Assembly (NCBI GenBank): GCA_025526995.1
Contig: JAHLKG010000015.1
Span: 496,001 to 560,000 of the forward strand
DNA: 64,000 bases
DNA from: Powellomyces hirtus
Taxonomy: Eukaryota; Chytridiomycota; Chytridiomycetes; Spizellomycetales; Powellomycetaceae
Direction of reading: 5' to 3'
The translations under genes and the position numbers were made by a program. The notes beneath the pieces are model-generated. The model searched no databases, was not told the origin of the DNA, and saw only the letters and a program-made list of their open reading frames with translations. Every line of letters starts with the position of its first letter. Positions within the stretch are counted from its first letter, which is position 1. Shown here one piece after another: positions 52,922 to 64,000 of this stretch.

Positions 52922-52956
52922 TACAGATCTCAGCTATCCTCACTACCAACTAGATT

Positions 52957-54168
52957 ATGTCAACTTCACTTATTCAAGCCGCTATCAACGCACAAGTAGC
53001 AGCCGCTGCAGTAGCTGCCGCTGCTGCTCCTCCTGGAGCTCCACCTGCACCAGCATTATGGGTAGCTCCAGTACCTGCTCCAGGCGCTGGATGGTCCAGA
53101 ACGGTTGAAACCTATACCGCCCGTAATGCTATGGAATCCGGACAAACCGAGGCCTCTCAGTATAAGGCCCAACAAGATTTGGAAGTGATAGATCGTTTTG
53201 TCACTTACCATCGAAATACCTACCCAATCCTGAATCGAATTAATCCTTGTGTCAACGAATTGACGTACCTTGTCGAACAAGTGCCTCCTACTCTTTCAGC
53301 GGAAGTCGACTCATGGCACGCCACCTTCATGGTGGCGATGGTTGCTGCTCCTGCTGCCCCATTGGCAGGACCTTTGGAAGACTGGATTGATTGTCTTTTG
53401 TTTCGATTCGCGCCTAAGAATGTTACTGCGCGACTTTATACAGAAATTTGTTCGGCCTACTTGAAGACGTCTCTTGAAGAATATATCCGCTATATCGAAC
53501 GAAGGCGCCACCTAGAAGGACTCGCCGTACGCGCTAATGGCATGGCAATGGAACGACGGCTGACTGATCACGAGCTAATTGACATCTTTAAAACGGGTCT
53601 ATCACGTCATCCTCATTACGGCCAATATCTTGTCCAAGCGTTGGAAAACTATGCCACTACTGCTTTGACCAACTTGCAAGGACCGGTAACCTTTAATGTT
53701 GCTGTTAATGTTGTCCGAAACGCATTCAATGCCAAAGGTCTTACGAATCAAGACCTAACTATTCAACGACGAGCATGGTCTACACCCAAAACCTCTTACG
53801 ACAATCGATCCAACCCTTATCCACAACGTGGTCGTAATACTCCCCCTTCTACTCCAAATCGTCAACGAGGACCGCCTCAGACACCTACACGTAGACAGAC
53901 AATGGAATCCGCCGTACCTCACACGCCTCAAACTCCACAAAATCAAAGATCAGGCAACCAGAACCAACGACGACAAACAAATACGGGAAGATCCTCCGGC
54001 TCCAATCGAATGCCTTGTAGTCGATGTGGTCGAAACAATCATCGTGCAGAAGAATGTTTTGCTCGACGACATGTGGATGGAACACCTCTGGATGATACCA
54101 TTGCAGTTTATGGTCCATCAGTGAAAAGGGAATCGGTGACGGATTTTCTAAACGGTTGGGACCAATAG
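52957..54168 (+). CDS. Gag of element A (Ty3/gypsy-like)
   Basis: 403 residues. The N-terminus is a striking Ala/Pro run (residues ~10-50). A helical capsid-like domain follows (WHATFMVAMVAAPAAPLAGP, TEICSAYLKTSLEEYIRYIE, ELIDIFKTGLSRHPHYGQYL), then a basic Thr/Pro/Gln/Arg-rich stretch and one zinc knuckle CSRCGRNNHRAEEC (C-x2-C-x4-H-x4-C). This is the structure of a retrotransposon nucleocapsid precursor. The frame is open from ATG to stop. Codon use is A/T-richer than that of host genes nearby. Confidence 0.85.
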   Translation: MSTSLIQAAINAQVAAAAVAAAAAPPGAPPAPALWVAPVPAPGAGWSRTVETYTARNAMESGQTEASQYKAQQDLEVIDRFVTYHRNTYPILNRINPCVNELTYLVEQVPPTLSAEVDSWHATFMVAMVAAPAAPLAGPLEDWIDCLLFRFAPKNVTARLYTEICSAYLKTSLEEYIRYIERRRHLEGLAVRANGMAMERRLTDHELIDIFKTGLSRHPHYGQYLVQALENYATTALTNLQGPVTFNVAVNVVRNAFNAKGLTNQDLTIQRRAWSTPKTSYDNRSNPYPQRGRNTPPSTPNRQRGPPQTPTRRQTMESAVPHTPQTPQNQRSGNQNQRRQTNTGRSSGSNRMPCSRCGRNNHRAEECFARRHVDGTPLDDTIAVYGPSVKRESVTDFLNGWDQ

Positions 54169-54524: not shown

Positions 54525-55223
54525 TGTGTATTATCGTGTGTTGTCAGGTGTAGAGCGGAGAAGGCGACCAGCGGCTGACAGCTTTATATAATGCGTGTCA
54601 GGGTGGCGCACACATAATTTATCCGTGAGGCGCTTTATTGCCTATGAGTCAGGAGTCATGTGTATCACCGATGAACGGGTGGCCAGCCCGAACAAAGGAT
54701 CGTGTATAACGTAATCAGAAAGTCACGAAAAAGTATAAGAATATGAGGTTTCCCCGACACCTCCCTCAGACCCTGAGGAAGCATCATAGATGAATGTGAA
54801 GGGGATGAATAGAAAGGGAGAGCTCATGTTCATTTTAGACTGTTGACGCAGTGCTCAGTCCTTGCGTTGGCGCGCGATGTTTGTGTATGCGACAGAGGCG
54901 TCCCTCGTGTCGAAGTGTTTGTATGTGTATGTAGGTCGGTTATTGCGTCGCCGCGCGTGATGTGTTTGTAGGTCGGTTATTGCGTCGCCGCACGTGATGT
55001 GTTTGTAGGTCGGTTATTGCGTCACCGCGCGTGATGTGTTTGTAGGTCGGTTATTGCGTCGCCGCGCGTGATGTGAAGAGAGACGAGGCGAAGCCAATCC
55101 GTCTCTGTTGAGTAGTGATGAAGTTTATCTTTTCTTCGTACGTGGCTGTATTGCCAGAGAGTGAGGATGGGCTGTTCGCCATTGTTGATAGGCAGGTATT
55201 TGTCGGAGTTCAGACTCAGGTTC
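54525..55223 (-). mobile_element. left portion of element B (3' LTR/UTR and end of pol)
   Basis: B is a minus-strand Ty3/gypsy chromovirus split by element C. Here lie the last ~31 codons of its polyprotein (minus, stop at 55125-55127), continuing the chromodomain right across the C insertion (WEP|ESELRQIPAY). To the left is LTR-like non-coding DNA starting TGTGTATTATCG at 54525 and containing a 37-bp tandem repeat. The inner LTR boundary could not be set. Confidence 0.7.
54931..55078. repeat. tandem repeat, 37 bp x 4
   Basis: Four consecutive copies starting GTAGGTCGGTTATTGCGTCG at 54931, 54968, 55005 and 55042, with single-base differences (copy 2 CGCACG, copy 3 GTCACC, copy 4 diverging at its end). 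It lies in the 3' non-coding part of element B. G/C-rich with repeated CGCGCGTGA/CACGTGA cores. Confidence 0.95.
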
Positions 55224-55462
55224 TGTTAGCACGTACAGACTTTGTCATCGAGTCATAACTGCGCCATCGCAGGGCGTATCACGCGATCACGTGAGCCCAC
55301 GTGATCAACTCCGATATAAGTAGTTTTCCTTCCATACTTAATATATCGGTGGGACTTTTCTCTTTTTCTCCAGTAGAGCGGGATTAAGATACTTTGTTGT
55401 TCTGCTCAGTCAACTACTCTAAAGCTTCCTCAACTATCTACTCAGATACTCTCAGACCAACA
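55224..55462 (+). repeat. 5' LTR of element C
   Basis: 239 bp, TG...CA ends. It includes a GATATAAG TATA-like box (55313-55320) and a palindromic pair of CACGTG motifs. It differs from the 3' LTR at three positions, all T here versus C there. Confidence 0.95.
55285..55306. promoter_or_regulatory. inverted pair of CACGTG (E-box) sites in the LTR
   Basis: GATCACGTG-AGCC-CACGTGATC: a 9-bp inverted repeat with 4-bp spacer; each arm contains CACGTG, the core bound by bHLH factors. It sits ~8 bp upstream of the TATA-like box, in the U3 region where enhancers are expected. An identical copy is in the 3' LTR at 61222-61243. Confidence 0.5.
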
Positions 55463-55476
55463 GGTTATGAGCCCTG
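55463..55476 (+). other. primer-binding site, half initiator tRNA-Met type
   Basis: GGTTATGAGCCCTG abuts the LTR without the usual TGG. It is complementary to the anticodon stem-loop strand of initiator tRNA-Met (CAGGGCUCAUAACC in yeast). Drosophila copia uses the same strategy, with a tRNA-iMet fragment cleaved in the anticodon loop. Confidence 0.75.
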
Positions 55477-55955: not shown

Positions 55956-58232
55956 GATTTGAACGTCCCGATTAACCCTCAGGTACGTACGGCGCAACGG
56001 CGCGTACGCACACCATCACCCACTCGCAACGATGGGTTCGCTGCACCGTGGACAGAGTACAATCAGGAGATTGGAGCTCAACAGGAATACCAATGTTCTC
56101 CATTCGAACGCCACCCTACATCACCGACATCGAGCATACACAGCGTGACGACCAAAATCGTCGACAGTCGAGGTGCGAAGGCCTTCGTGGATGGAACGCT
56201 GAAAGATATTGGATCTTACAACAGGGAAGCCAATATGGTCAAACTTCGAACGTTCATCGACAAGATTGAGACAGTTGTGAAGTACGAAATGGTTCCGCCC
56301 GAGTTTCTCGTAGATTTTGTGGCTACGAAACTCACAGGATGGGCATACACTTGGTGGCAGTCGCTCTCACCAAGTAAAAGGAACGAAATTACGACGTGGC
56401 ATGACTTTGAAGACGTTGATTCAGGAAGAACCAACACTGGTCTTAGGTCCGCCCTTCTGGCGCGCTTCGCGCCACGAAACCACACTAGGGATTCGCTGCA
56501 GAAATTACGGGAATTGCGTCCCAAAGGCCGCATGGATGAGTACATCACTCAGTTCAACATGCTGGCATTTTCTCTGCCGAAGACACCGGATTACGTCCTT
56601 CAGGATTACTTCATCAACGCGCTAACACCAGACCTTGCGGCCTTGGTTCAGGCTAATGAAGAAAACATAACTGATTTGAGCAGTTTACAGGCTGCTGCAT
56701 CCAGGATTGCCGCCAACATGGCTAAGAAACCTAGCGGGACCTCAACGGATACGCGACCAGGTGCCGCACACACTGACGCCTCTAAGAAACAAAAGGGTGG
56801 CAAGAACCACGGGGAGAAGTCAACAAACGGCAAGAAGGACAAGGAATCCACTCCATCAAACAAAGGCCAACCATCCAAGTCGGGTTGTTGGGCCTGTGGA
56901 GACCCTAAACACCGAACACAGGAGTGCGAAGTGTTAAAGAAGTTCAAATCCGAGATGGAGAAGAACAAGACAAAGCAGTCGTCTGATGGTGCTGTTAGCA
57001 CAAATGCTGTGGAAGCATTACACGTCTGGGTCCGCCAAGAACAACCGTATGAAGCCCTCATCGACTCTGGCGCTACGGACCACATGACACCTTACAAAGC
57101 GACCTTAGATCACTCAACCGTGTACAGTGATGTCAGAGCTGTTATGCTTGCTGACAAAACATCACTACCCTCTACAGTTCGAGGTACGGTACGAGTAGAA
57201 GTTAACGACTATCCGAATCCGCTCGAGTTGGGCGGAGTCTTGCATGTGCCAGGATTACGACGAGATCTCGTATCGGTAGCGAAATGCAACGATCAAGGCG
57301 TTGACGTGCTCTTCAAGTCGAATGGAGCCGTCATTTTCACGCGAGACGGCAAAGAAATCGCCAAAGGCGTACGCCACAACAACGCGTATTACCTGCAAGG
57401 TACGCTGCTGTCTGAAAGTCTGTGCTCAGATTCAGAAGCATGCACTGTCGAAGTCTCTCCTACACTCGCTCATGCTCGTCTTGGACACGTTGGCAAACAC
57501 GTCCTGGAGAAGATGGCATCGGTTATGGACGGTTGGTCCGTAGTGGGGGATCTAAGTGACTTCAAAGATTGTGAAGCCTGCGTGTTAGGAAAAGCCGCTC
57601 GTCTTCCATTCTCCCCTGGTAACGTTGAAACCAGGGAGATCTGTGAGCTGATTCATTCAGACCTACAAGGACCATTTCGCATCCCTGGTTACGAAGGATC
57701 ACGCTATTCGCTGGAGTTCATTGAACACACATCCAGATACGTGACTGTTTTCCCTATTCCTTCAAAGGACTCAGCAGTCATACTCGACAAGTTTCTCATC
57801 TACAAGGCTTGGATTGAGAAACAGACTGACCGACAAATCAAGATCCTACGTACGGATCGAGGCACCGAATACTTTGGCGAGGTTCTAGAGTACCTATTCA
57901 AAAATGGTATCACCCATCAAAAGTCCGCGGCCTATTCGAGTCAGCAAAACGGGATTGCCGAACGATGGCATTGCACGGCGCTGGACAGGGTCCGCGCCAC
58001 CTTCGCGGATACAAAACTACCTCGAAGATTCTGGCCTGCTTTACTGGTAGCGGCTGGATACATCTATTCCCTTACGTACAACCGCATCAACAAGAAGACG
58101 CCGCATGAAATACTGTTTGGCCGGCGTCCTGATGTCGCCCATCTCCGGCGTATCGGTTGCGTGGCGTATTCCGTCCTAACGAGCAAAGGACGCGATAAAA
58201 TGGGGAATCGAGCAAAGAAGCTTACTTGGTAG
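55956..58232 (+). pseudogene. element C Gag-protease-integrase segment
   Basis: About 758 residues, same frame as the preceding segment. Capsid (Retrotrans_gag/UBN2-like: VDFVATKLTGWAYTWWQSLS, LRELRPKGRMDEYITQFNML), zinc knuckle CWACGDPKHRTQEC, protease YEALIDSGATDHMTPYKA, and GAG-preintegrase zinc finger (HARLGHVGKHVLEKM...CEACVLGKAARLPF). The integrase core has Asp in IHSDLQGPF, Asp in RTDRGTEYFG and Glu in QQNGIAERWH. It ends prematurely at 58,232 where a one-base shift moves the frame into the RT segment. Confidence 0.9.
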
Positions 58233-60250
58233 GCTATGCTCAACCCTCAGGTACCAAGGGGTATCTGGTTTGGGATCCTATCACTGACAAGGTTGAAGTG
58301 TCACGAGACGTGATCTTCAAAGAAGACTTGGGGCTCGAACCCAAATATCAGCAGGATCCAGCACATCTTGACCTTCTAGATGAGGAGAGTCAGGAGGATG
58401 ACGTCGAATACACCGTGGAGGCGATTATCGACGAGCGCCGCAGTAAGGCGCACACAAAAGAGTACTTGGTTAAGTGGGAGGGATATCAAGAACCTACGTG
58501 GGAGTCCCGACTTTCACTACTCGATACTACCGCATTGGATGACTGGGAGAATCGAGTCGCCGCGTACGATGTCGGCACACAACGAAATGACCCCATCGCT
58601 GCATACGCCGCCCGCGCGCGGACTCAAGCAACGATCAACGAAGACGCCATGACATGGAAGCAAGCGATGAAAACCCCTCAGAAGGAGGAATTTCTCAAGG
58701 CTGCACGCATTGAGTACCAATCCCTAGTCGACAACGGTACATGGGAACTCACCAAGCGTCCACGTAACAAGCGCGTGATCGGCACAACATGGGTCTTTCG
58801 AACGAAGGTCAATCCCGATGGCACCTTTAACAAGTTCAAAGCCAGAGCAGTGGCTCAAGGCTTCTCTCAACAACCCGGTCACGACTTTGGTGATACATAC
58901 TCACCGACGCTACCATTCACAGCGCTACGCCTCTTCTTGGCGTATTGTGTTCAGCACGGGCTGGACATCCACAGTATGGATGCTGTTACCGCCTTCCTTA
59001 ACAGTGATATTGATAAGGATATCTATATCGAGCAGTTTGAGGGATTCGAAGACCCGGATCACCCCAAAGGCGATTGGGTCCTGAAGCTACTGAAAGCTCT
59101 CTACGGCCTGAAGCAATCACCTCTTCTTTGGTATGAGACCTTGAAGACTGCACTGTTAAAGCTCGGCTACAAAGCGGTTTCTGTATGCCCGTGTATCTTT
59201 TTCAAATACGCGACAGACAACCGTACACCTCCGTCAAACGACAACTTGATCCTTATTATGGTCTTCGTCGACGACCTGCTGATTGCAGCGAAGGATCAGG
59301 AGATTCTGGCAAACAGCAAAATGGAGCTACATTCGAAGTTCAAGTTTACGGAACAAGGTCACGTAACCAGTCACCTTGGTCTCGTCTACAAATATGACTT
59401 TGACTCTCCTGTTCGTACCCTCAAAATCTCAAATGTCAAGTACATCGACGACGCTCTTGAACAATTCGGCATGAGCGACTGCCATCCTGTCTCCACTCCG
59501 TACACCGTGTCAGCGCGTAACCAACAACCGGAGGATTCGACCCCATTCACGAATCTGAAAATGTATCAGGAAGCAGTGGGGGTCCTCACTTGGGCCTCCA
59601 TCACATGGCGATGGGATATCGCCACTGCAGTCGGTTACGTTGCGCGCCGCGTTGCCGCACCTACCAACTCCGACTGGAACAATGTTAAGCGCATTTTCCG
59701 CTATTTAAAGGGTACCCGCGATTATGCCCTCAAGTTTACATCCGAACGAAATGATCCACGTGGTCTACGCGTATTCACGGATGCGGATTATGCCGGAGAA
59801 CTCACCGACCGGACGTCCACTACAGGTATTTTGGCCCTTTACAATGGGTTTCCTGTTCTGTGGAAAAGCAGCAAGCAGAAGTGCTCCGCCCAAAGTACAA
59901 CCGAAGCGGAGTATATAGCTGCAAGTACCGGTCACAACGAAGCCAAATGGCTACGCCAACTCTTGGCGGAAGTTTTGGGACCTCAACCGGATTACAAATC
60001 TCGACCGGTCCCTCTCCATGTCGATAATCAGAGCGCCGGGGCCTTGATTCAGTCTAAGGCTATCAACCAACGCACCAAACACATCGACGTTTGGTACCAC
60101 GCTATACGCGATTCGTTCGCGAAGCAGATTATCGAAATCATCGACACCATTACGGAAGATCAATTGGCCGACATCTTTACGAAGCCTTTCCCAGCCGTGA
60201 AACATAAGGACACTGTCCTGAGGATTACGAATGGGACTCATTATATTTGA
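58226..60250 (+). pseudogene. element C chromodomain-RT-RNase H segment
   Basis: 674 residues in the -1 frame relative to the integrase segment. It starts with the end of the integrase region (VGYAQPSGTKGYLVWDPITD). It then carries a chromodomain at ~58,405-58,560 (VEYTVEAIIDERRSK, EYLVKWEGYQEPTWESRLSL). RT follows: VIGTTWVFRTKVNPDGTFNK, HSMDAVTAFLNSDIDKDIYI, YGLKQSPLLWYETLKTALLK, and catalytic FVDDLLIAAKD. RNase H has FTDADYAGELTDRTSTTG, AQSTTEAEYIAASTGHNEAK and ADIFTKPFP. Catalytic residues look intact. Confidence 0.92.
58405..58560 (+). other. chromodomain coding region inside the copia polyprotein
   Basis: About 50 residues with the chromodomain fold pattern: an EYTVEAIIDERR strand, an EYLVKWEGYQEPTWE core and an ALDDWENR helix. 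The three aromatic-cage positions that bind methyl-lysine in HP1 are all aromatic here (Y of EYTVE, W and Y of KWEGY). It lies after the integrase, as in Ty3/gypsy chromoviruses, but in a Ty1/copia gene order. Confidence 0.85.
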
Positions 60251-61160: not shown

Positions 61161-61399
61161 TGTTAGCACGTACAGACTCTGTCATCGAGTCATAACTGCG
61201 CCATCGCAGGGCGTATCACGCGATCACGTGAGCCCACGTGATCAACTCCGATATAAGTAGTTTTCCTTCCATACTTAATATATCGGTGGGACTTTTCTCT
61301 TTTTCTCCAGTAGAGCGGGATTAAGATACTTCGTTGTTCTGCTCAGTCAACTACCCTAAAGCTTCCTCAACTATCTACTCAGATACTCTCAGACCAACA
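61161..61399 (+). repeat. 3' LTR of element C
   Basis: 239 bp, same ends and length as the 5' LTR. Three differences (C here for T in the 5' LTR): ACAGACT(C/T)TGTC, ACTT(C/T)GTTG and AACTAC(C/T)CTAAAG. It is followed by the target duplication GGTTC. Confidence 0.95.
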
Positions 61400-64000
61400 G
61401 GTTCCCATGTAGGGTCGGCCCATCCTGCCCATTTGACCAAGAGGTTTCGCTTATGGCGCCGTTCATCAATGATGTCTTCAACAACCCATTCTTGTTCTCC
61501 TCGAACTTCGATTGGTTTGGGTGGTTGTTCGACTTCGCGTTGTGGATACTGGTCTATTGCGTGAGGGCGTAGGATATCAACGTGGAAGACAGGCCAAATG
61601 CCACTAATCTTTGAAGGCGAAAGGTCGAGTTCATAGGTATCAGGGTGATCACCTTTGGCAATGACTTTGTAGGGTCCAATCCATATGGTAGAGAATCGGG
61701 GACCTCTTCTTATGTCAACCTCGAGGTCTATACCCTTGCGATTGAGATCAACGAGATCTCCAATATTGTAAGCGATAGAAGTGCGGCCTTTGTCATGTTG
61801 TCGGGCGTATTCATCTTGTGCTCGACGTAGATTTTCGCGTACGATTCGGGCTATCTCTTCTTGTCCCTTATGGTATCTTTCGAGCTCGGCCTTGTCGACT
61901 CCGCGTAGACAAAGTTCTTGTCCTTCTAGGAGTGGATTCCATCCAGGTAAGATGACTGTACGGCCAAGGTCTACTTCGAATGGTGTCAGGCCTTCATTTT
62001 CGCTTCTAGGGGCAGTGTTGAAGGCGAATTCCACAAGTGGGAGTAACTTCTTCCAATTGCTCTTATTGTAGTTGAGATACTGCTTAAAGATTCTCTTCAG
62101 TGTTTGAATGGCTCGTTCAACTTTCCCATCAGTTTGCTGGTGTCGAGCTGTGGCGAATTCGTGTTTAACGCCGAGTAAGATATCAAAAGCGAGGAAAAAA
62201 TCTGAAAGTGCTCGAGGTTCGCGGTCCGTAACAAAGACTTTTGGAGTCCCGACATATTTCCATACTCGATCCAGAAAAACGGCAGCAAGTTCTTTACCGC
62301 CAATGTTCTTGTTGACTGCTGAAAGGATAGCACGTCCTGATAGATAGTCAATACAGGCGAGACATGCTTCATCTCCGATATAGAAGATATCGAATCCAAT
62401 GGTATGCCATCTTCCCAATGGCACAGGAAGTGGTCGTAGAAATCAGTAACGACGATGACCAGGTTTGAATTGTCGGCAGGATTTACATGTTCCGACATAC
62501 TTCATGACGTCTTGTCGAACGTTGGGCCAATAGTAATCGACAAGGATTCGAGCGAGTGTTTTCTTAACGCCCAGGTGACCTCCAGTGGCTAAATCATCGT
62601 GAAATTGTCGTAAGACTTTTGGGCGTAGGCTTTCAGGTACATAAAGACGTCCTTCGTGGCGAGCGATTCCATCTTGGAAAGTATACCGTCGTTCTTTTGC
62701 GGTCTTTTCGTGATTGGGTTTCTTACAAATCTCTTCGAGATATTCCGAGTAGGGATCAATGGCTAAAGCTTGTTTCCATTCTTGGATAGAATACGTTGGT
62801 GTCGTGCGAAGATCAATTGTTGTTCCGGCTATAGGAGGAATGCCATCCATCATGTTGTTGACCTGAGTATGCATATCGATACGTCTTTGACATTCAACAC
62901 AATGTGGAGCGTAAATAGCACTTTGGGAGAGAATGTCCGCAATATGATTCCACCTCCCTGGAATGTACTGAATCGTAAAATCGTATTCTTGTAGAATCTC
63001 GACCCATCGAGCTTGTCTTTGGCTAAGGTGAGGTTGTGTTTGGATAAATTCTAAGCCTTTGTGATCGCTGAAGCACCGAAATGGACGTCCAACCAGGTAT
63101 GGTCTATTGGCTACAAGCATCTTGACTAATGTGAGTAGTTCTTGTTCGTGTGTCGGATACCGATTCTCAGCGCCCTTCATCTTGCGAGAATAGAAAACGA
63201 CAGGTCGGAGGCGAGGTAATTGTTTCCATTCGCCGACGAGACGAGGAAGATTCGTTGGTATGGTCTCGTCATCATATGGTTGTCCGATCCATCCAGCAAT
63301 AGCGTAGCCAGACGAATCTGTGTAGACGTAGATAGGTTTACTTTCATCGATAGTTGCTAGAGCTGGCGCGTTGATAAGTGCTTCCTTCAGTTTCTGGAAT
63401 GCTTGCTCTTGATCGGCTTCCCATTGGAACTTGACTTTCGCTGATTGAATGTTGGATAATGGAAGAGCAATATTCGAATAATCTTTGACAAAGTCAAGGA
63501 AATAGTTGGCGAGGCCAAGGAATGATTGAACTCCTTTTGTCGTCGTAGGTCTAGGCCAGTCCTTAATCACTTGGATCTTTGAAGGGGCGATGCGAATTCC
63601 ATTTCGACCCAAGACGTGTCCACACCATTCAACTTCAGGCACGGTCCAGACACATTTAGACGGTTTGACGTAAAGTTGATGTTCTTCGAGCTTCTTGAGG
63701 ACTAGGTCTACGTGTTTCTGATGTTCCTCCAATGTCTTTGAGAAGATGAGGATATCGTCGAGATATGAGTTAACGAAATCGTTGTAGTCTTTGTGAAAAA
63801 CTTTGTTCATTAATCGTTGGAATGCGGCAGGAGCATTGGTTAAGCCGAAAGGCATGACGAGGTATTCGAAATGACCAAATCTTGTGCGTATGGCGGTCTT
63901 TTCCCGATCTTGTTTTCGAATGAGCAAACGATGATAGGCTTCCTTAATATCGATAAGACTGAAGTATTCGCATCCTTGAATTCGGTCACGCATTTCGCGG
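61400..64000 (-). pseudogene. element B pol (RT-RNase H-integrase-chromodomain), right portion, 5' partial
   Basis: Ty3/gypsy order, minus strand, running in from beyond the window. RT: FSLIDIKEAYHRLLIRKQDR, YLVMPFGLTNAPAAFQRLMN and catalytic NSYLDDILIFSK. RNase H: PIYVYTDSSGYAIAGWIGQP, RWVEILQEYDFTIQYIPGRW. Integrase: zinc finger (HDDLATGGHLGVKKTL...CKSCRQF), then GFDIFYIGDE, FVTDREP and QQTDGKVERAIQTLKR for D, D and E. The chromodomain (EWVVEDIIDERRHKRNLLVK, WAGWADPTWEP) is cut by element C. One in-frame TGA at 62443-62445, after KPGHRRY, interrupts the frame between the zinc finger and the integrase core. The frame resumes without a shift. Confidence 0.9.

Follow-up and report, generated by a model that had tools for sequence, protein, structure and literature searches.

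A 64,000-nt stretch of the Powellomyces hirtus genome (G000:C15:496001-560000, hereafter the window) raises the question of whether a Ty1/copia retrotransposon can use a chromodomain to choose its insertion sites, a targeting that is a textbook trait of Ty3/gypsy chromoviruses. The window contains a copia element that encodes such a domain. A fungal origin is also indicated by a protein that is nearest to New1 of yeast and to eEF3, members of a fungal family. From the analysis of this element and of its relatives in the genome (29.3 Mb in 60 contigs), we estimate at about 0.72 the probability that it belongs to one or several established chromodomain-bearing Ty1/copia lineages and that the chromodomain steers integration into silent chromatin.

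A chromodomain between integrase and copia-type reverse transcriptase

The element has the features of Ty1/copia elements (Pseudoviridae): integrase (INT) before reverse transcriptase (RT), an RT of the copia type, a 5-bp target-site duplication (TSD) and long terminal repeats (LTRs) with TG...CA ends. In the Pfam scan, the frame 55956-58232 matches Gag, Pol_BBD, gag_pre-integrs, rve and the start of SH3, and the frame 58199-60250 (frame 2) matches SH3_retrovirus, i.e. the integrase end (residues 4-43), Chromo (71-119) and RVT_2 (179-435). No RVT_1 match was listed for the RT, which falls among RVT_2 proteins in the RT trees. The copia gene order and RT type proposed by the earlier note are thus borne out, with rve upstream of RVT_2. 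The chromoviral arrangement is an RVT_1-type RT followed by the integrase, whereas the order here is INT, chromodomain, RVT_2-type RT. The window copy is defective: N-terminal Gag is interrupted by a stop, and the reading frame shifts within the C-terminal module of the integrase; other copies have open frames that cover both INT and RT and reach 1873-1874 codons.

The Chromo match in frame 2 (E 1.3e-8, 35.1 bits for a Pfam cut-off of 25.1) is located by the profile search at 58409-58555, in agreement with the 58405-58560 given by the earlier note. A PDB sequence search with the domain retrieved 27 distinct sequences at E<=0.001, all chromodomain proteins by name, including HP1/CBX, CDY, Polycomb, Chp1, Swi6 and cpSRP43. 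The predicted fold is beta-beta-beta-alpha and its best match is with readers of methylated lysine 9 of histone H3 (H3K9me). All three aromatic residues of the cage (Y71, W93 and Y96) are present, as the earlier note had claimed. The integrase ends in the chromodomain, which follows the SH3-like domain and precedes the RT.

The family is represented by at least 65 copies: 65 matches (window copy included) were scored among 949 first-look candidates and this number is therefore a lower bound. The same holds for all genome position lists, which comprise 65-67 scored matches per element search and 127 in one search. Query residues 71-119, i.e. the chromodomain, are covered by all 65 matches, which are distributed on many contigs. 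The 30 copies that were read, window copy included, all carry the chromodomain with Y71, W93 and Y96 invariant. Full-length copies devoid of the domain, whose search was a preset test of this reading, were found neither among the 65 scored matches nor among the 30 copies read. Furthermore, pN/pS across the 30 copies is 0.179 for the chromodomain (bootstrap range 0.098-0.400), 0.203 for the linker (0.114-0.501) and 0.206 for the RT, the ranges being obtained from 15 of the 30 copies with 60 resamples. The chromodomain is under purifying selection.

Divergence between LTRs (K) ranges from 0.004 to 0.062 in 17 copies, 10 of which, including the window copy, are flanked by an exact 5-bp TSD. This set derives from 20 five-prime LTR regions, of which L081, L083, L084 and L092 gave no LTR and were dropped, leaving 16 in addition to the window copy. 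Some copies deserve separate mention. L002 (C15:583852-588897) shares its 12-base 5' flank with L003 and its 12-base 3' flank with the window copy; this pattern, noted at L002, L073, L003 and L074, suggests that copies about 15-47 kb from each other have recombined or been duplicated. In L011 and L012 (C28), the matched frame is preceded by an LTR at a distance of about 100 bp, which suggests that these copies are internally deleted, non-autonomous derivatives.

Three other copia families of the genome carry a chromodomain between SH3 and RT: L031 (44.7 bits), L041 (38.8 bits) and L072 (62.5 bits). They were found by Pfam searches in which the best 150 of 455 Chromo candidates and the best 150 of 630 RVT_2 candidates were scored. 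The window frame is 34-35% identical to L041 and L031, the second and third families are 40-41% identical, and the RTs of L072 and L041 46%. The cage positions remain aromatic (Y/W/F or Y/W/Y) in the other chromodomain copia families read. Chromodomain-less copia elements of the genome (L039, L040 and L042) have at that place a linker without chromodomain motif. Hence, the 65 matches, the 30 copies and the three further families agree with the suggestion of the earlier note that the element may define a copia lineage, and speak against a local accident.

Relatives also exist in other datasets. Protein database searches (best 120 of 928 matches with the whole frame and best 120 of 1052 with an alignment query) gave 206 distinct proteins, including truncated rows unable to show the domain, such as the close relatives P0001 and P0002. 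Among the matches listed, four of the 206 (P0003, P0004, P0121 and P0150) have a chromodomain in the corresponding position. The Pfam Chromo cut-off is exceeded by P0004, P0121 and P0150; P0003 scores 19.4 bits with Pfam and 41.8 bits with a local hidden Markov model (HMM) built without it. This HMM otherwise contained P0003 and P0004, and each was still found when left out. The protein database search with residues 1-180 of frame 2 alone gave no match, and no relative was confirmed among the viral contigs searched. Bacterial genome contigs harbor 41 copia-like loci that are probably eukaryotic contamination. One of them, L117 (JADMKJ010000036.1), a eukaryote-like copia in a contig from a bacterial bin, has a chromodomain (Chromo 35.6 bits) at the end of the integrase frame, with which the RT frame overlaps. 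In another context, DNMT5 was considered for a chromodomain-bearing SNF2/RING host protein at C31, which we left unnamed.

The Gag of these elements is also unusual. In place of the usual copia-type Gag (PF14223), the window family encodes a Ty3-type capsid, and PF19259/PF03732 are above cut-off in all four families (63.6/51.6 bits in L093, 34.1/55.3 in L095 and 36.0/33.0 in L096; see Table 1 for the window copy). Gag and pol form a single open frame in the window family and in the second family. The copia of this genome that lacks a chromodomain has a PF14223 Gag (147 bits). In L117, PF14223 scores 23.4 bits, a weak match below cut-off; the Ty3-type Gag therefore characterizes the four families of this genome and not every chromodomain copia.

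Number of captures and possible donors

The chromodomain could have been captured several times independently by copia elements, a scenario that we consider plausible but somewhat less probable than not. The RT-only tree has three starred groups (the window family with P0001-P0004; L031 with P0121 and P0150; L041 with L072), and the best trees built on RT alone require that the domain was gained or lost 2 to 3 times. These counts are those made on chromodomain-less rows, counts by chromodomain label (4 and 5) being inflated by two rows without that region. The diatom element CoDi-A and L117, with its different Gag type, also speak for repeated capture. However, starred branches force only one change, and a single chromodomain clade is not rejected on RT (p-AU 0.512, 0.32 and 0.206). 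Moreover, all four families of the genome share the position of the chromodomain and the Ty3-type Gag. In the INT+RT tree built without linker columns, all eight chromodomain rows are split from the 31 others (support 70/84, unstarred). Because of this split, a single old capture appears weakly favoured. Inclusion of the linker columns also united the chromodomain rows (73/94), but the chromodomain itself could drive this grouping and the tree was discarded.

As to the origin of the domain, the earlier note mentioned an adjacent gypsy chromovirus with its own chromodomain. This chromovirus is present but is not merely adjacent: it is the insertion target, and the copia element sits within the codons of its chromodomain, the gypsy element being on the minus strand. 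The right flank reads ...LLVKWAGWADPTWE to the junction, and the left flank alone reads ESELRQIPAYQQWRTAHPHS... and then a stop. Downstream of the interrupted chromodomain on its strand lies a 37-bp tandem repeat (window 54923-55107, four overlapping 74-nt copies).

A capture from a gypsy chromovirus by template switching, perhaps from a relative of the interrupted one and possibly together with the Ty3-type Gag, is therefore worth weighing, although we regard it as doubtful. The interrupted gypsy has the highest identity with the window chromodomain in a 19-row set (58% over 33 columns) and the same shortening by two residues, and both fall with P0003/P0004 in the chromodomain tree, which has 19 rows and 54 columns (87/87, unstarred). 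The presence of a Ty3-type capsid in all four families goes in the same direction. However, only two of the 16 inner branches of this tree are starred and it is too poorly resolved for a donor to be named. In it, family 4 falls beside a host domain of the HP1 type (L059) and a second gypsy (85/86). The chromodomain of L117 is accompanied by a weak match to a copia-type Gag, so that the chromodomain and the Ty3-type Gag need not be transferred jointly. Furthermore, the transfer could have gone from copia to gypsy. As regards the transfer between element families put forward by the earlier note, the gypsy target is the nearest by identity and the 87/87 grouping is a hint, though no demonstration, of chromodomain exchange, and donation by gypsy is possible. 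Another element family (L049, L053, L060 and L061) ends in a chromodomain reading VEKIVNHRDT..REFLVKWKYWPAKHNTW.

Distribution in the genome and role of the chromodomain

If the chromodomain acts in targeting, its cage would bind methylated H3 tails, most likely H3K9me, and the integration complex would dock on nucleosomes of silent chromatin, to which the chromodomain would tether the integrase. Insertion would then occur among older retrotransposons, often around the dense arrays formed by chromodomain-less copia. One main array was recognized by a clustering rule on each of 16 contigs (e.g. C8:380321-445854 and C28:3025-63475). The copies of this chromodomain-less element (67 scored matches, e.g. 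L094) are 98-100% alike over the searched piece; the set amounts to 135 merged positions, and the copies read from it are L039, L040 and L042. These arrays may be centromere-like, which would make their element a candidate centromeric retrotransposon.

Of the 65 copies of the window family, 30 are on contigs with an array: two inside the array and 18 within 100 kb of it. For 51 kinase genes located on such contigs (from a set of 101 genes obtained by merging those of the 156 matches that were listed, all lists being sorted by hand), the numbers are 0 inside, 7 within 100 kb and 44 farther. When the comparison is restricted to the 15 contigs whose length is known, array flanks contain 16 of 28 window-family copies (P 6.9e-6 versus a uniform distribution) and 6 of 50 kinases (P 0.93). 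The third family gives a similar picture (0 inside, 11 near, n=17, P 4e-5), and the second a less sharp one (5 inside, 12 near, n=29, P 0.004). Chromoviral hits behave alike (0 inside, 15 near, n=30, P 1.1e-4), this set being 73 other chromodomain hits treated as chromoviral, only some of which were read. In addition, the median distance to the nearest other listed LTR element is 9.3 kb for window-family copies versus 149 kb for kinases.

In 22 copies, transitions are 2.3-3.2 times as frequent at CpG as at C in other contexts, an excess consistent with methylated DNA. Repeat-induced point mutation (RIP) is a CpA effect of ascomycetes and was rejected as the cause of the C-to-T changes, since the enrichment is at CpG and not at CpA.

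Various observations weigh against targeted integration by one or several established chromodomain lineages. RT-only trees leave the chromodomain rows in separate groups, and the loop behind the third cage residue lacks two residues relative to HP1. In the genome, 35 of the 65 copies are on contigs without recognized array, and of the 30 others 10 lie beyond 100 kb of the array. The arrays are not strictly avoided, two window-family and five second-family copies being inside. Clustering is also unspecific, as the chromodomain-less copia is itself clustered in arrays, and selection against genic insertions would give the same clustering. Since chromodomain-less elements cluster too, the distribution data do not separate targeting from survival.

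The chromodomain might have another function: it could retain the element in the nucleus by binding HP1 or host chromatin, or act solely as a structural support at the C-terminus of the integrase, with clustering resulting from loss of copies from gene-rich DNA. The clustering of the chromodomain-less copia agrees with this, and a fold match by itself shows no function. However, the cage aromatics are invariant in the 30 copies and aromatic in the other families, and a purely structural role would need no such cage; we consider this alternative unlikely. Heterochromatin-targeted integration is likely and is compatible with the fold, the cage, the conservation and the clustering.

More tentatively, these elements may be mosaics between superfamilies, joining a copia polymerase and integrase to a gypsy-derived Ty3-type capsid and chromodomain, in at least four families that would share out chromatin with the chromodomain-less copia. 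The latter would occupy array cores, which may be centromere-like, and the chromodomain families the surrounding silent chromatin. The junction of a Ty3-type Gag to a copia pol bears on how freely modules are exchanged across LTR superfamilies. Moreover, chromodomain and chromodomain-less copia elements in one genome offer a natural matched comparison for deciding whether retrotransposon distribution is governed by the domain or by selection.

Finally, a local insertion, a chimeric assembly or a nested-element artefact, as could be suspected from a defective copy nested in a gypsy element, can be ruled out for the window copy given the 65 scored matches spanning the chromodomain, the frames open across the domain elsewhere and the relatives in other datasets.

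Annotation of the window copy and comparison with known systems

The features of the window copy and of its target are listed in Table 1. The primer-binding site, which we take to match the anticodon arm of initiator tRNA-Met, recurs in all five copia families of the genome that were checked; tRNA and Rfam searches of the 64-kb window gave no match. Elsewhere in the window, a 404-aa open frame (52954-54168) with a gag-type zinc finger (zf-CCHC_5) is probably the gag of another retroelement.

Table 1. Coordinates, in the window, of the copia element and of the gypsy chromodomain that it interrupts
Feature	Position	Strand	Remarks
Rest of interrupted gypsy chromodomain up to stop	55125..55217	-	left flank alone: ESELRQIPAYQQWRTAHPHSLAIQPRTKKR, then stop
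Left TSD GGTTC	55219..55223	.	identical 5-mer flanks both sides
5' LTR, 239 bp, TG...CA	55224..55462	+	3 transitions vs 3' LTR, K 0.0127
Primer-binding site GGTTATGAGCCC, presumably half-tRNA iMet type	55463..55474	+	directly 3' of LTR
Frame 1: Gag, protease, integrase; begins after stop in N-terminal Gag	55956..58232	+	
Ty3-type capsid	56202..56660	+	PF19259 37.4 bits; PF03732 39.8 bits
Integrase core (rve)	57648..57938	+	Pfam scan
Frame 2: integrase SH3 end, chromodomain, RT, RNase H by position	58199..60250	+	
Chromodomain; cage Y71, W93, Y96 of frame 2	58409..58555	+	Pfam 35.1 bits; 30/30 copies; predicted fold
Copia-type RT (RVT_2)	58733..59503	+	194.8 bits
3' LTR, 239 bp	61161..61399	+	
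Right TSD GGTTC	61400..61404	.	
First part of chromodomain of interrupted gypsy chromovirus	61402..61497	-	reads EQEWVVEDIIDERRHKRNLLVKWAGWADPTWE up to junction

Among known systems, Ty3/gypsy chromoviruses (Metaviridae) resemble the window element by their integrase C-terminal chromodomain with a cage and by the Ty3-type capsid in Gag, but the latter differs from them by its RVT_2 RT and by an integrase preceding the RT. A copia-like element with a gypsy-like integrase, a copia/gypsy mosaic by title, is reportedly found in the red alga Porphyra yezoensis.

A chromodomain in copia has a precedent, and the earlier note was overstated in this respect. According to the accessible text of Llorens et al. 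(2009, PMC2774666), the integrase of the diatom Ty1/Copia element CoDi-A ends in a putative chromodomain, which therefore lies between integrase and RT as in the window element, and no other copia with a chromodomain was known to them at that date. A 2024 paper (PMC11541908) likewise cites CoDi-A as the copia case of chromodomain. CoDi-A differs by its diatom hosts, and its likeness to the window element is that of the published description. For fungi, we found no report of a chromodomain copia among the titles and abstract openings listed by searches of the open-access literature, although one may exist elsewhere, Repbase included; the word start 'chromo' is absent from the accessible text of a survey of fungal Copia (PMC5445492).

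The arrays of chromodomain-less copia (1361-1368 aa) resemble by description GlCEN427, a Copia of Ganoderma leucocontextum that is concentrated in putative centromeres and for which GAG, INT, RT and RH are listed and no chromodomain is named in the text available (PMC10817607). Lastly, ECR-1 and other brown-algal Gypsy elements are described as having an integrase-fused chromodomain outside the chromovirus clade, and the chromodomain of ECR-1 has been proposed to target centromeres (PMC11541908, PMC12477816). These elements thus share the integrase chromodomain with the window element, but they belong to Gypsy, whereas the window element is a copia.
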